A DNA stretch of 35,002 nt from positions 1 to 35,002 of the forward strand of contig JANRJG010000037.1 of assembly GCA_033875315.1 (NCBI GenBank), in the 5' to 3' direction. Source of the DNA: Candidatus Methylacidiphilales bacterium (GTDB lineage: Bacteria > Verrucomicrobiota > Verrucomicrobiia > Methylacidiphilales > CAZTYG01). Shown piece by piece: positions 9,956-16,205 of this stretch; position 1 is the first letter of the stretch; each line of letters opens with the position of its first letter. The notes under the pieces are model-generated. The model did not search any database. It was not told the origin of the DNA and worked only from the letters and a program-made list of their open reading frames with translations. Made by a program: the position numbers and the translations under genes.

Positions 9956-10774
9956 TCAGAGTTTTTCCCGGGCGGCCCGGACGCGGGTTTTGAGGGCTTC
10001 GAGCTCCCTTTCCATGGCCTCAAGCTCGCCCGCGGTGGATTCGGCCTTGAGCCGGTGCACGGCCTTCTCTTCCTGCACCTCCTGCATGCTGTTCATGATG
10101 ACCCCGATGAAGAGGTTGAGCATGATCATGGTGCCGAAAAGGACAAAGGAGATGAAGTAGACGACCACCTTGATAGGAGAAACACCCGAACCCCCGCGCA
10201 AAAGGTCATACATCAAGCCGGTCCAGCCCTCGAGGGTGATGACCCCGAAGAGGGTCAGCAGGGTGTCGCCGAGGGTGCCGAAATGCTGCGGATCGGCCTT
10301 GCCGAAGAAGAAGACGCCGGTGACGCCGTAGATGTAGAAAAGGACGGAAAGGAGGAGGCCGACATAGCCCATCGAGGGGATGGATTTGAGCAGGGCGCCG
10401 ACGAGGAGCTGCAACTTGGGCAGGGCGGTGACGAGGCGGAGGACGCGGAGGACCCGGGCCAGACGGAGCACGGCGGCAAATTCCGAATGGAAAGGCAGGA
10501 GGCAGACCGCAACGATGCTGAAGTCGAAGACATTCCAGGGGTCGCGGAAGTAGCGCCAGGGGCGTGGGAGTTCGGAGGCCAGCTTGAGGAGGATTTCCAG
10601 AACGAAGACGAGCAGGATGGCACGGTCGAGCCCGTGCAGGAGGGGGCCATGGGTGGCGACGATGCCGGGGTTCGTTTCCAGGCCGACGACGATGCCGGCG
10701 AGAAAGATGGCGGCGATGATGAAGGTTTTGAAAGGGGTCGAATCGACCACGGAGCGGAGGGCGGCGGCGGACAT
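9956..10774 (-). CDS. Voltage-gated cation channel, single six-helix repeat (BacNav-like)
   Basis: From ATG 10774 the protein has 272 residues. S1-S3 hydrophobic helices lie at about 17-100. S4 has arginines at 104, 107, 110 and 113 spaced every third residue (RLARVLRVLRL), the hallmark of a voltage sensor. The S5-pore-S6 unit lies at about 135-228, with the selectivity-filter motif TLEGW at 180-184. A charged coiled-coil-like helix (228-272) closes the protein, as in bacterial sodium channels that assemble as tetramers. Sodium channels of this group have TLESW, so the ion preference (sodium or calcium) is open. It diverges from the glycosyltransferase gene. Confidence 0.88.
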   Translation of the reverse strand: MSAAALRSVVDSTPFKTFIIAAIFLAGIVVGLETNPGIVATHGPLLHGLDRAILLVFVLEILLKLASELPRPWRYFRDPWNVFDFSIVAVCLLPFHSEFAAVLRLARVLRVLRLVTALPKLQLLVGALLKSIPSMGYVGLLLSVLFYIYGVTGVFFFGKADPQHFGTLGDTLLTLFGVITLEGWTGLMYDLLRGGSGVSPIKVVVYFISFVLFGTMIMLNLFIGVIMNSMQEVQEEKAVHRLKAESTAGELEAMERELEALKTRVRAAREKL

Positions 10775-10869
10775 GCCAAACGATCTAGCGGTGCTTTGCC
10801 GGGTGTCCAGTGCGGGATGTGGAAGAACTGGGGCTGGCGGTCCAGGAAGCACTGTGTTTATCTGGAGGG

Positions 10870-12051
10870 GTGAAAAAACGCATCCTCATCATGTCGGCTT
10901 CGGTGGGATCGGGTCACATGAAGGCGGCCGAAGCATTGGAAAAAGCCTTCCGGGCGCGCCCCGAAGTGGGCGAGGTGATGAGCGACGATGCGCTTGAATA
11001 CACGAATGCGGTCCACAAGCAGTTTTACTCCAAGTTGTACGAAAAGCTTTCGAGCATCGCCCCGAACTTTTTGGGCTGGTGGTATGAGCGGAGCGACGAG
11101 CCCTGGCGGGCGGACCAGGTGCGTCTGGCCATCGATCTGCCCAACACCCTGCCCCTGATCAAGTTCATCAAGGATTTCCAGCCCGACGCCATCGTTTGCA
11201 CCCACTTCATGCCCGCCGGGGTGATCTCCTACCTGATCGCCCAAGGCAAGTTGGATACCCACCTGTCGATTGTGGTGACGGACTACCATTTCCATGCCGA
11301 ATGGTTGTGCCGGGCGTTCCACCGTTACTTTGTGGCCCAACCGGAGGACCGGGTGCACATGGAGGCCTTGGGCCTGCCGCCGGAGCGGATCCATGTGACG
11401 GGCATTCCGGTGGACCCGGGTTTCTCGCGTCGCATGAGCCGGCCGGCCATTCTGCGCCGCTTCGGCCTGGACGGAGAGCGGCCGATCCTATTGTTGACGG
11501 CGGGGACGCTCGGCCTGAGTCCGGCCCAGTCGGTGGTGCGGCGGTTGTTGGAAATGCCGCAGGATTTCCAGACCGTGGTGGTTTGCGGGAAGAACGAGGC
11601 CCTGCGGGATACCATTCATGAACAGGTACGGAATTCGGGGCGGAAGTTCCTCGTTCTGGGCTACACCCGGGAGATGCGGGAATTGATGCATGTATCGAGC
11701 CTCTTGTTAAGCAAGCCGGGTGGGTTGACCACGGCCGAATCACTGGCCAGCGGGCTGCCGATGGTCGTGCTGGACCCGGTTGGAGGGCAGGAGGAACGGA
11801 ATGCGGAGATGCTTCTGGAGAAAGGCGCGGCGATCAAGTGCACGGAAGTGACGGTGCTGCCCTACAAGGTGGGCTGCCTGCTTGACGACCCGGCCCGGCT
11901 GCGCCAGATGTCACGTGCCGCCCTGGCGGTTGGCAAGCCCGACGCTGCTGCGGAAATCGCCCGCCTGGTGCTGGAGGATGACGGATTGCCGAACATCATC
12001 ACCCCGGCAGAAACCCGCAAGTGGCGCTTGGCGGCAGCCCGGGAGGCATGA
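10870..12051 (+). CDS. MGDG-synthase-like glycosyltransferase (GT28 family)
   Basis: This protein likely transfers a hexose from a nucleotide sugar to diacylglycerol or a similar lipid. The N-terminal MGDG_synth-type domain begins KRILIMSASVGSGHMKAAEAL, and the C-terminal GT28 donor-binding half has SKPGGLTTAESLASGLPMV followed by GGQEERNAEML. The frame is open from a GTG at 10810; GTG 10870 (VKKRILIM) is closer to the family's usual start but has GGAGG only one base upstream, so the start is uncertain. It has 393 residues from 10870. The stop lies 4 bp before the GH1 start, so the two genes are probably translated together. Whether the sugar is glucose or galactose cannot be told. Confidence 0.85.
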   Translation: MKKRILIMSASVGSGHMKAAEALEKAFRARPEVGEVMSDDALEYTNAVHKQFYSKLYEKLSSIAPNFLGWWYERSDEPWRADQVRLAIDLPNTLPLIKFIKDFQPDAIVCTHFMPAGVISYLIAQGKLDTHLSIVVTDYHFHAEWLCRAFHRYFVAQPEDRVHMEALGLPPERIHVTGIPVDPGFSRRMSRPAILRRFGLDGERPILLLTAGTLGLSPAQSVVRRLLEMPQDFQTVVVCGKNEALRDTIHEQVRNSGRKFLVLGYTREMRELMHVSSLLLSKPGGLTTAESLASGLPMVVLDPVGGQEERNAEMLLEKGAAIKCTEVTVLPYKVGCLLDDPARLRQMSRAALAVGKPDAAAEIARLVLEDDGLPNIITPAETRKWRLAAAREA

Positions 12052-12055
12052 GCGC

Positions 12056-13576
12056 ATGAGTCCGAGTCCGGTTGGGGCCGGCCGGTTCCTTTGGGGCGTG
12101 GCCACCTCAGGTTACCAAAGCGAAGGGGGTTACAACGGTCCCGGCCAGCCCCAGAACAACTGGGCCGAGTCCGAGGAGCGGAGCGATGTCGCCACCACCG
12201 GACAGGGGCCTGACTTTTGGAACCGCTACGAGGAGGATTTCAGTCGTTGCCAGGCGATGGGACTGAATGCCTTCCGCATGGGTGTGGAATGGGCGCGCAT
12301 CCAGCCCAGCCCGGCAAGGCACCGGCACGACCCGCCGTTTTTCGACGGCGAGGCATTGCGGGCCTATGCCCGGCGCCTGGCCTCGGCGAGGGAACATGGC
12401 ATGGAGCCCGTGGTGACCCTGCACCACTTCACCCATCCGGCGTGGTTGGGGACCGATCCCTGGTTGGAGGAGGAGACGCCCGCGTTGTTTGCGCACTATG
12501 TCCGCCACACGGTCCTGATGCTGAACCGGATTCTCGAGTCGGAGCACGGCCAACCGCCCCTGCGCTGGTTCATCACGCTCAACGAGCCGAACATGCTGGT
12601 GCTGAACACCTATGTCCGCCGGCAATTCCCCGGCTCCATTCCTCCCTCGATCCGGACAGTGACCCTGGCCTACGACCACCTCCTGGCAGCCCACGTTCTG
12701 GCCTACAATGTGCTCCATGATCTTTACGCGGGCGAAGGCTGGCGGGCGCCCATGGTTTCGCTCAACACCTACAGCAGTGACCTCTATTGGAACGACAAGG
12801 TGCTGTGGGATTTCCTGGCCCTGGGCGAGACCAATCTCCGGCCCAGCGATTGGAATGAGTATTTCCGCAACCGGGCGGCGGAGTTTGACGAGGCGGTGCA
12901 CGCTGCGGACCTGCCCATGGCCCATACGGCCGGGTGGTTCATGGGAAAGGCCTTCCAGAGCCTGGCCAATTGGTTCCACTTCCTTGTTTTTGACGCCGGA
13001 GAAATGAAGGCTTTTGCCAGGGCGCTGGAACGCTCCGCCCGCTCCCGCCTTTTTGATTACACCGGAATCGATTACTACGATCCCTTCAGCGCGCATCTTT
13101 TCCGGTTCCCGAGCTTTGCCGACCTGGAATTGTCGCACGTCGGTTGGCACGCCTGGGTCATGGAGGGGATGATGCGCAAGTGGTGGGAATGGAAGATGCT
13201 TCCGGAGGGCCTGGGGTTCTTCTGTCGCCACTACGCCGAGGCCTACCATCGTCCGGTGTTGATCGCCGAGAATGGCATGGCCCTGCGGCGGAAGGCGGAC
13301 AATTCACCCGGCCACCGCCGCGGCGACCGCATGACGCGCAGCCTGTTCCTCCAGATGCATGTGAGACAAGTGATCCAATTGGTCCGGGCGGGGGTGCCGG
13401 TGGCGGGTTATCTGCACTGGTCGCTGACGGACAATTACGAATGGGGATCGTTCACCCCGCGCTTCGGGCTGTATGCCCTGGATTACGCCCGCGCTTCTGT
13501 GCGTCTGGAGGCGGACCATCTGGGGGACGAACCGTCGCGGACGTATGCCAAGCTGGTCCGCCAGGCGGGTTTTTGA
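12056..13576 (+). CDS. Glycoside hydrolase family 1 (beta-glycosidase-like)
   Basis: The 506-residue protein covers the whole GH1 barrel. The glycone-site motif SGYQSEGG is at residues 18-25, the acid/base glutamate in TLNEPN at E177, the nucleophile in IAENG at E405, and the sugar-binding motif WSLTDNYEW at 455-463. No signal peptide is present, so it is cytoplasmic. The start ATG 12056 has GGGAGG nine bases upstream, inside the end of the glycosyltransferase gene. Family members hydrolyse beta-glucosides or galactosides, and some (plant SFR2) transfer galactose between galactolipids. The coupling with a lipid glycosyltransferase raises that option here; it is inference. Confidence 0.9.
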   Translation: MSPSPVGAGRFLWGVATSGYQSEGGYNGPGQPQNNWAESEERSDVATTGQGPDFWNRYEEDFSRCQAMGLNAFRMGVEWARIQPSPARHRHDPPFFDGEALRAYARRLASAREHGMEPVVTLHHFTHPAWLGTDPWLEEETPALFAHYVRHTVLMLNRILESEHGQPPLRWFITLNEPNMLVLNTYVRRQFPGSIPPSIRTVTLAYDHLLAAHVLAYNVLHDLYAGEGWRAPMVSLNTYSSDLYWNDKVLWDFLALGETNLRPSDWNEYFRNRAAEFDEAVHAADLPMAHTAGWFMGKAFQSLANWFHFLVFDAGEMKAFARALERSARSRLFDYTGIDYYDPFSAHLFRFPSFADLELSHVGWHAWVMEGMMRKWWEWKMLPEGLGFFCRHYAEAYHRPVLIAENGMALRRKADNSPGHRRGDRMTRSLFLQMHVRQVIQLVRAGVPVAGYLHWSLTDNYEWGSFTPRFGLYALDYARASVRLEADHLGDEPSRTYAKLVRQAGF

Positions 13577-13599: not shown

Positions 13600-15384
13600 T
13601 CAGGCGTACAGCGGACCGTACGTCTGGCAGGCGCGGAAGTCCGCGCCCTCGCGGTCGGCGGTGCCGAAGGCATTCCACGCGCTCGGGCGGAAGATGCGGG
13701 GTTCTTCGACATTGTGCATGTAAACCGGGATGCGGAGGATGGAGGCGAGGGTGAGGTAGAGGTGGCCGACATGGCCCGCCGTGAGCACACAATGGTTGGC
13801 CCCCCAGTGGTTCATGACCTCGTAGGTGGACTGGAAGGCGCCCGAGCCGGTCAGGCGCGGGGCGAACCAGGTGGTCGGCCAGGTTGGGTTGGTCCGGAGG
13901 TCGAGGGCGTCATGCACCGCATCGGGGAGTTCCACCGTCCAACCTTCGGCCACCTGGAGCACGGGGCCCAGGCCGGCCGCCAGATTCAGGCGGATCATGG
14001 TGGCGGGCATGCCCCCGCGGGTGCGGTAGCGGGTGCTCCAACCGCCGCCCGGGAAATACTCGGTGATGGAAGGATGCCAGGTGGTGGACTTGAGGCAGGC
14101 TTCGGCTTCTGCATCGGTGATTTCCCAGAAGGGCTTGAAGGCCGGCTTGCCGTCGGGGCCGCTTTGGCAGCCGGTGCCGTCCAGTGCGGCCGGGCCGGAG
14201 TTGATCAAGTGGAGCAGTCCGTCGGCCGCCGGGCCCGAGGGCTTCCAGCCCCCGGAGGCCTTGGCGATGGCGTCCGGGCTCCAGTAAGTGCGCAGGTCGG
14301 CGAAGATTTGTGCCGTATTGGTCAGAAGCCAGCCAAAGAGCATGCCGGCGCCGTTGAGGGCGTCGTTCTCGGTCGCGACAATGTAAGGGGCGCGTTTCCC
14401 GGTCCAGTCGAACGAGCTGTTGAGGATGGCCTCGAGGTAGTCGCCATTGGGGAAGTGGTCGGTCCATTGGCGCTGGCCCTGGAATCCGCCGGCCAGGGCA
14501 TAGTGGCCCTGGGCCTGTTCGCCGTAGCCCAGTTCGGCCAGGCGTGGATTGCCCACCATGAGGTCGCGCGCGATGAGGGCCATCTTGACCGATGTCTCCC
14601 ATTCGCTGTCGAGCTGTTGGCGGCTGCGGGTGGTTTCCTTGCTGTTGAAGTCCCTGCCCTCGGCGCAGTGCTTCCGGGTCCAGGCCAGGGCGGTTTCGTA
14701 CTCGGCCGGATCGAAGATCCCCTTGTTGATCCGTCCGCAGAATTCCGCCATGTCGATGGCTTCGACGCGCATGCCGAGGTGTTGTTCCCAGAAAGCGGGG
14801 TCGACGACACTGCCGGCGATGCCCATGCTGGTGCCGCCCATGGAGAGATAAGCTTTGCCGCGCATGATGGCCGCGGCCAGTCCGCAGCGGGCGAAGTTGA
14901 GGAGTTTTTCCTCGACGTCGGCGGGGATGGATTCATCCCCGGCATTCTGGACATCGCGGCCGTAGATGCCGAAAGCGGGCAGGCCCTTCTGGGTGTGGCC
15001 GGCGAGCACGGCGGCGAGGTAGACCGCGCCGGGGCGTTCGGTGCCGTTGAAACCCCAGACCGCCTTGGGCCGGTGGGGGTCCATGTCCATGGTTTCCGAG
15101 CCATAACACCAACAGGGGGTCACGGTGAGGCTGACTCCCACGTTCTCGCGGCGGAATTTTTCCTCGCAGGCGGCGGCTTCGCGCACGCCGCCGATGCAGG
15201 AGTCGGCGATGACACATTCGACCGGAGTCCCGGCCGGGGTGCGCAGCTTGGAAGAGAGGAGGCGGGCGGTGCGTTCCGCCATGGCCATGGTTTGCTTTTC
15301 GAGGGATTCGCGCACGCCGCCGAGGCGTCCGTCAATTGTCGGGCGAATGCCAATTTTTGGGATGTTTTGCAACAAGGGATTCAT
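13600..15384 (-). CDS. fucI: L-fucose isomerase
   Basis: The 594-residue protein interconverts L-fucose and L-fuculose, the first step of intracellular fucose breakdown; some homologues also accept D-arabinose. The N-terminus ([20 protein letters not shown]) and the segments [34 protein letters not shown] and [12 protein letters not shown] are characteristic, and length is close to E. coli FucI (591). The frame is open to 15507, but ATG 15384 (MNPLLQNIP) begins at the family's normal N-terminus. No fuculokinase or aldolase is adjacent, so the remaining pathway must be elsewhere. Fucose use fits growth on algal or cyanobacterial polysaccharides. Confidence 0.93.
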
Positions 15385-15467
15385 CGGAGAAAATTGTGCC
15401 GCTCGTGCGGCAAAAGCAAACTGAAATCCCGTGCTTGCCAGCGTTCCCGTCCTTGGGAAGATGAGCC

Positions 15468-16205
15468 ATGTATCGATCCGAACCTCCCTCTTCATTCTTT
15501 CCAGCACTGGTTCTTGCCCTTGGCTTGGCCATGGGCGGCTGGCTCATCGGTTCCGGGATCCGCCAAGTGGCTTTGGCCAAGGAAAGCGTGACCGTCAAAG
15601 GCTATTCCGACCAGGAAATCACCTCGGATTTCGGGCTGTGGTCGGCCACGGTGACCGTGCGGGGCCTCAAGCTGGCCGACACCGGCAAGACCCTCCAAAA
15701 CCAGATGGCCGCGGTGACTAAATTTTTGGAAAGCCAGGGTGTCCCCGCGACGCGGATCGCCGTGCAGCAAGTCAACAGTTACCCCCTGATGCGAACCACC
15801 GACTCGGGCAACACGACATCGATCATCGACAGTTTCGTCACGAGCCAGCGGGTTTCGGTGGAAAGCACGGACATCGCCATGCTCCAGGCCCTGACCCTCC
15901 GCAGCCCCGAGCTGCTGGGACTGGGTTACGAGATCAACCTGGAACCGACGCAGTACTTCCGGCGCGAGCTTGGGGATTTGAAGATCAAACTGCTGGGCAA
16001 TGCGATTGAAGACGCACAGACCCGGGCGCGGGAAATGGCTTCGCGGACCGGACGTTCGATCGGCCGCCTGCGTTCGACGACCCAGGGGGTCTTCCAAGTG
16101 ACGGCGGCCTCTTCCACGGAGATATCCCCGACCGGCGAATTGGACACCTCCTCGGTGGAGAAGAAAATCCGCGCCGTGGTCACGGCGGAATTCGAGTTGA
16201 AGTAA
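15468..16205 (+). CDS. SIMPL-domain (DUF541) periplasmic protein
   Basis: The 245-residue protein has an N-terminal hydrophobic signal or anchor (residues 12-35, ending QVALAKE) followed by the SIMPL/DUF541 domain: [25 protein letters not shown], the helical middle, and [19 protein letters not shown] near residue 185. DUF541 proteins (such as E. coli YggE) are periplasmic and linked to oxidative-stress resistance or envelope integrity, but their biochemistry is unknown. It diverges from fucI with 83 bp between start codons and converges on ppk1 with 12 bp between stops. Confidence 0.85.

Follow-up and report, generated by a model that had tools for sequence, protein, structure and literature searches.

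In plants, SFR2, a galactolipid:galactolipid galactosyltransferase of glycoside hydrolase family 1 (GH1) that converts MGDG to oligogalactolipids, acts in the same pathway as the MGDG-type lipid glycosyltransferase (GT) MGD1, and a loop of the protein termed loop A is important for SFR2 (PMC11525325). A further characterised lipid GT of this kind is UgtP/YpfP, a processive diacylglycerol beta-glucosyltransferase. The balance between hydrolysis and transfer in GH1 enzymes has been approached by engineering of the active site. Asn282 of the Thermus beta-glycosidase (Tt-beta-gly) hydrogen-bonds the acid/base glutamate, with an occupancy of 92% in simulation (PMC6467970), and its N282T mutant and the N291T mutant of the T. 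neapolitana enzyme show a raised ratio of transglycosylation to hydrolysis, with W120C also among the listed transglycosylating variants (PMC4803828, PMC9113129), although in HoBGLA the N294T change did not raise the oligosaccharide yield (PMC4803828).

The locus considered here lies in a stretch of 35,002 nucleotides (the window) from a Candidatus Methylacidiphilales bacterium (GCA_033875315.1, contig JANRJG010000037.1), in which the initial annotation had noted an MGDG-synthase-like GT gene next to a GH1 gene and proposed, by reference to SFR2, a galactolipid-remodelling pair. The pair probably builds or rebuilds a bacterial sugar-lipid.

The gene pair and its products

The first gene (10870..12051, + strand, GTG start) encodes an MGDG-synthase/UgtP-like glycosyltransferase of the GT28 type with 393 residues, and the second (12056..13576, + strand) a GH1-family enzyme of 506 residues; both are complete and, as annotated, separated by 4 bp. 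The ribosome-binding site of the GH1 gene had been placed inside the GT gene, and a Shine-Dalgarno-like GGGAGG (12041..12046, + strand) is indeed found within the GT reading frame, with the GH1 ATG 9 nt downstream by inspection of the sequence. Upstream of the GT is an ion-channel-like gene on the - strand and downstream of the GH1 a convergent L-fucose isomerase gene, also on the - strand, and because these flanking genes point away from the pair or converge on it the two genes stand as one unit. The ion-channel-like protein (Ion_trans; 9956-10852, - strand) is listed with a GTG start that is probably too far upstream, a Met roughly 26 codons later fitting better, and the isomerase (13600-15507, - strand) is full length and scores above the NCBIfam equivalog cut-off. 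A long hydrophobic stretch was found in neither the GT nor the GH1 protein. With the barrel of the GH1 starting as early as about residue 11, the earlier description of this enzyme as cytoplasmic is reasonable.

The GT matches the Pfam families MGDG_synth (2.7e-27, 96.3 bits) and Glyco_tran_28_C (3.5e-10, 40.6 bits), both above cut-off, and its top NCBIfam model is that of the diglucosyl-DAG synthase PRK13609, at 228 bits and below the cut-off of 500. The solved structures closest to it by sequence are those of a UgtP-type processive diacylglycerol glucosyltransferase (PDB 9wde) and of plant MGD1 (PDB 4wyi), and the characterised relatives as a whole are mainly diacylglycerol GTs. Among 23 pair GTs drawn from Verrucomicrobiota and cyanobacteria, His16 of the SxGxGH motif (10915..10917, + strand) is invariant, as are G306, Q307, E308, E309 and N311 of a GQEERN motif (G306-N311; 11785..11802, + strand) that aligns with the GQE of MGD1. 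The window GT is therefore like UgtP/YpfP and MGD1 in family, domain make-up and the GxGH and GQE motifs, and differs from them in its identity to enzymes of known function (~30-34%, and ~30% to UgtP and MGD1 themselves), in falling under the equivalog cut-off and in sharing an operon with a GH1 gene. This distance and the NCBIfam score would fit a pair whose lipid is not diacylglycerol but a hopanoid, carotenoid, polyprenol or sphingolipid, or whose substrate is a soluble glycoside, as would the fact that cyanobacteria already have a different route to MGDG (PMC5809773). Among enzymes of known function those closest to the GT are nonetheless diacylglycerol GTs, and such a substrate is considered improbable.

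Conservation and distribution of the pair

Whether the pair is conserved in other Verrucomicrobiota had been proposed as a check, and it is, both within the window's order and beyond it. Among 60 genomes of the window's order, one of them that of the window itself, GH1 (E<1e-40) is found in 50 and the GT (E<1e-60) in 45; 44 genomes have both, 9 neither, 6 the GH1 only and 1 the GT only, counts that are not independent events since the genomes are related. The two genes are adjacent in 36 of the 44 two-gene genomes and lie on different contigs in 8 genomes of family f9; in one of the 6 GH1-only genomes (G017) the locus begins at a contig edge. At G027:C1:967950-969064 either a frameshift or an error in sequencing has divided the GT into two frames (pieces of 46% and 57% identity), next to an intact GH1.

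Named genomes, when scanned, yielded 80 loci, in Verrucomicrobiota (Chthoniobacter, Terrimicrobiaceae, Methylacidiphilales and subdivision 6) and, unexpectedly, in cyanobacteria (Planktothrix, Phormidium, Leptolyngbya, Elainella and others), where the GH1 is ~49-55% identical to that of the window. Among the Methylacidiphilales loci, L127 and, through a GT sequence identical to that of G020, L124 correspond to genomes from the order of the window, which by itself makes Methylacidiphilales its probable order. In most of these loci the GT is directly 5' of the GH1 on the same strand, and in none are the two on opposite strands; many Verrucomicrobiota have a 4-bp ATGA overlap of the two genes. 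No other widely shared neighbour was found at the pair loci. Contamination of cyanobacterial bins is an unlikely source of the cyanobacterial loci, the pair being present in cultured strains and on a Planktothrix chromosome (L070, L078, L073, L082), and a search of plasmids with the GH1 returned ordinary GH1 enzymes only, at <28% identity.

In an even sample of 292 cyanobacterial genomes the GH1 is present in 6 and the GT (at least 60% identity) in the same 6, adjacent every time, while the next-best GTs in the sample reach 33% identity. An even sample of the phylum Verrucomicrobiota has the GT family in 62 of 288 genomes (E<1e-30) and the GH1 in 10 of 288 (E<1e-40), and the GT subfamily is present without this GH1 in other Verrucomicrobiota; the wider spread of the GT family suggests that it is the older partner, to which the GH1 was added later. 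The recurrence of the pair in the same order and on the same strand in two phyla is far beyond chance.

The surroundings of the genes vary among relatives. Lipid-related neighbours occur in single genomes: in G012, where the GH1 stands without the usual GT, a gene for a fatty acid desaturase lies near it in the same orientation (L196:2283-5819), and in G004, a genome of the same order with the GT and without the GH1, the GT is immediately preceded by lipid-transport genes of the MlaE and MlaD types and by an ispD-like gene (L197:641-3758). In some relatives a metallo-beta-lactamase-fold gene lies 3' of the GH1. An alternative partner is seen in family f24 of other Verrucomicrobiota, where a GH1-less GT is coupled by a 4-bp overlap to a gene resembling low-molecular-weight protein tyrosine phosphatases (L277:3367-5126, L278:2467-4253, L279:1481-3261).

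A separate GH1 lineage and its relation to SFR2

The window GH1 matches Pfam Glyco_hydro_1 (PF00232) at 2.9e-46 (158 bits against a cut-off of 22.6) and misses the cut-off of the GH1 beta-glucosidase equivalog TIGR03356 (168 bits against 478.5). A tree was built from 30 pair GH1s, 38 ordinary GH1s mostly of the same phyla, PDB entries 8y9q and 6kdc, and SFR2. The SFR2 sequence used in the comparison is a provisional one, its length of 622 residues and catalytic E267/E429 agreeing with the known protein. The 30 pair GH1s come together in a single clade (100/100) whose stem measures 1.47 changes per site, and they are thus a lineage separate from ordinary beta-glucosidases.

The pair GH1s do not group with ordinary beta-glucosidases, a grouping that the initial annotation had listed among the grounds for refutation. 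They do not group with SFR2 in the best tree either, in which the provisional SFR2 joins 8y9q and 6kdc at 99/92, apart from the pair clade. Forcing the provisional SFR2 together with the pair clade costs 6.7 log-likelihood units, and this joint clade is not formally rejected (AU p=0.073). The specific link to SFR2 made by the initial annotation is not supported by the structural comparison either, since the N-terminal segment of SFR2 and its long loop A before the second strand are absent from the window GH1; the segment from W36 to FWNRYEED spans ~16 residues in the window GH1 and ~70 in the provisional SFR2. That the GH1 is an orthologue of SFR2, the same galactolipid:galactolipid galactosyltransferase in a bacterium, could draw on the AU value just given and on an FRMGV(E/D)W motif common to both proteins, and yet it is extremely improbable, given the placement of the provisional SFR2 in the best tree, its bit scores, which are higher against ordinary GH1s (133 for those in this set and 168 for PDB entries) than the maximum of 103 reached with pair members, and the mismatch at Asp339, in the N-terminal part and at loop A. 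Because the best tree places SFR2 elsewhere and SFR2 scores higher against ordinary GH1s, the comparison is one of analogy, and the likeness is functional at most. It lies in the shared pathway of a GH1 enzyme and an MGDG-type lipid GT, as proposed for the window pair, and in the lack of Trp at the position of Trp122 of TmBglA, where the window GH1 has Phe and the provisional SFR2 His. At the position of Asn293 of TmBglA, SFR2 keeps Asn whereas the window GH1 has Asp, and the two are not sisters in the best tree.

Pairing with different glycosyltransferases

The histories of the two genes differ. In the GH1 tree the cyanobacterial sequences nest within the verrucomicrobial clade, next to those of Chthoniobacter and Terrimicrobiaceae, with AU p=0.031 against a clade made up of Verrucomicrobiota only. 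In the GT tree the pair GTs of cyanobacteria branch on their own, outside those of Verrucomicrobiota. A single clade of all pair GTs is rejected (AU p=0.0005 and 0.0006), and the grouping predicted by the GH1 tree has p~0.01. Long branches were considered as the cause of the discordance of the GT and set aside, as the same result is obtained without the longest rows, although the program continues to flag a junction of long branches. As for the pair of the window, both its GT and its GH1 fall with Chthoniobacter-type pairs and not with its own order, a placement suggesting that they travelled as a unit.

In genomes of family f3, which belongs to the window's order, no GT of the usual kind was found; their GH1 divergently adjoins a third type of GT, in which an MGDG_synth-type domain is fused to a PHP domain. 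Two examples from the same order (L187:3491-5467 in G002 and L188:1244-3196 in G010) encode a fusion of ~650 residues with the PHP domain at the C-terminus, and in other genomes of the window's order GT matches fall in open frames about as long.

The GH1 lineage appears to have been paired with MGDG-synthase-like GTs more than once. A functional tie between the GH1 and the MGDG-synthase-like GT, which had been drawn from gene order, is now strongly supported because the GH1 adjoins different branches of the GT family in different lineages. That the GH1 recurs beside one class of lipid GT is the strongest indication that it acts on what these GTs produce. A neighbourhood of two housekeeping genes that share no pathway and were kept together by chance is very improbable; it would be consistent with the separation of the genes in part of family f9 and with the GT standing alone in other classes, and what speaks against it is conservation, namely adjacency in two phyla, joint absence, the identical distribution in the sampled cyanobacteria and the pairing with different GTs.

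Active site and predicted structure of the GH1 enzyme

The catalytic residues noted previously are present and are invariant in 68 members of the family: Glu177 (12584..12586, + strand), the acid/base of the TLNEP motif, aligns with E166 of TmBglA, and Glu405 (13268..13270, + strand), the nucleophile of AENG, with E351. In alignment with TmBglA the pair GH1 family also keeps Q21, H124, N176, Y341, W455, E462 and W463. Two positions depart from the usual pattern. Asp339 (13070..13072, + strand), in the signature DYYDPF, occupies the position of Asn293 of TmBglA and Asn282 of Tt-beta-gly; it is Asp in 68/68 members and Asn in 38/38 ordinary GH1s, and Asn is likewise found in TmBglA, 8y9q, 6kdc and the provisional SFR2. 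Phe125 (12428..12430, + strand), at the position of Trp122 of TmBglA, is invariant in the 68 (Phe in 30/30 pair GH1s of the tree set and Trp in 37/38 ordinary GH1s), and is common to 8y9q and 6kdc, both annotated as beta-glucosidases. These are the same two positions that are altered in the engineered transglycosidases (Tt-beta-gly N282T and W120C, T. neapolitana N291T), which, however, are laboratory mutants carrying Thr or Cys, whereas in the pair GH1s the Asp and Phe are natural and invariant. By this analogy D339 and F125 point to a transfer enzyme, bearing in mind that the mutants tested at the position of D339 carry Thr and not Asp; an Asp at position 339 could equally suit a hydrolase that differs in its pH optimum or in its leaving group.

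An AlphaFold2 model of the GH1, built with the 68 sequences (pLDDT 88, pTM 0.91), is a (beta/alpha)8 barrel that matches GH1 structures with Z up to 39.3 over 360 residues. The structure search does not discriminate function, because its top rows, all ordinary GH1 enzymes, are tied within 1-2 Z units; the uppermost, tied with the rest, is PDB 1vff from P. horikoshii, an enzyme with a preference for alkyl glycosides. By the predicted secondary structure, a helical stretch between barrel strands 5 and 6 (residues 248-326; 12797..13033, + strand) is longer than that of TmBglA. The segment 340-380, which follows the strand bearing D339, is aromatic and conserved, though modelled with low confidence, and could be a mobile lid. 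Compared with ordinary GH1 beta-glucosidases (TmBglA, PDB 1od0, and the P. horikoshii enzyme), the window GH1 shares the barrel fold (Z ~39), the catalytic glutamates and most residues of the -1 subsite, and differs in its separate long-stemmed clade, the invariant D339 and F125, the longer helices at 248-326 and the coupling to a GT.

The GH1 might alternatively be a plain beta-glycosidase that strips sugar from the glycolipid made by the GT, for recycling, quality control or tuning of its level. The evidence of coupling fits this equally, and both catalytic glutamates together with the main -1 subsite residues are as in hydrolases; on the other hand, a maker and a degrader in one translationally coupled operon would constitute a futile cycle unless regulated, and the Asn-to-Asp change falls at a position tied to the balance of hydrolysis and transfer (PMC4803828). 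A plain hydrolase is accordingly regarded as rather unlikely, though it deserves to be taken seriously.

Proposed function and significance

The preferred reading, to which we assign a probability of about 0.75, is that the GT and GH1, coupled in translation, make up a glycolipid module whose GH1 works on the beta-glycosyl-lipid made by the GT. In this module the GT would be an inverting enzyme that takes a hexose (Glc or Gal) from a UDP-sugar and places it on a membrane lipid, diacylglycerol being the likeliest, to yield a beta-glycosyl-lipid. The GH1, with its retaining beta-glycosidase fold and both catalytic glutamates, would take this product as its substrate and would pass the sugar from one glycolipid to an acceptor, whether a second glycolipid or another lipid, more probably than to water, and would in this way lengthen or remodel the head group without UDP-sugar. 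Transfer is favoured over hydrolysis because the surroundings of the acid/base are altered in every member, from Asn to Asp and from Trp to Phe; that the module works through transfer has, in our estimation, slightly less than an even chance. Its most far-reaching form, offered tentatively and rather unlikely as a whole, is a bacterial glycolipid-remodelling system where a GH1 lineage separate from SFR2 serves as a natural transglycosidase making oligoglycosyl-lipids from the product of its operon partner, the cyanobacteria having taken the GH1 from Verrucomicrobiota and coupled it there to a different MGDG-synthase-like enzyme, in convergence with plant MGD1/SFR2.

In the open-access literature, searched for the pair, for lipids of Methylacidiphilum and for glycolipids of Verrucomicrobiota, no description was found, and the proposed way in which the pair builds a sugar-lipid seems undescribed there. 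The GH1 clade, likewise undescribed in that literature, has a diagnostic change in the active site and goes together with lipid glycosyltransferases in two phyla. Should its members prove to be transglycosidases, the pair would be a bacterial counterpart of plant oligogalactolipid synthesis, present also in filamentous cyanobacteria, and would allow the part played by individual GH1 residues in the choice between hydrolysis and transfer to be tested on a natural enzyme. The prediction that follows is that of an as yet unnoticed glycolipid in Verrucomicrobiota.
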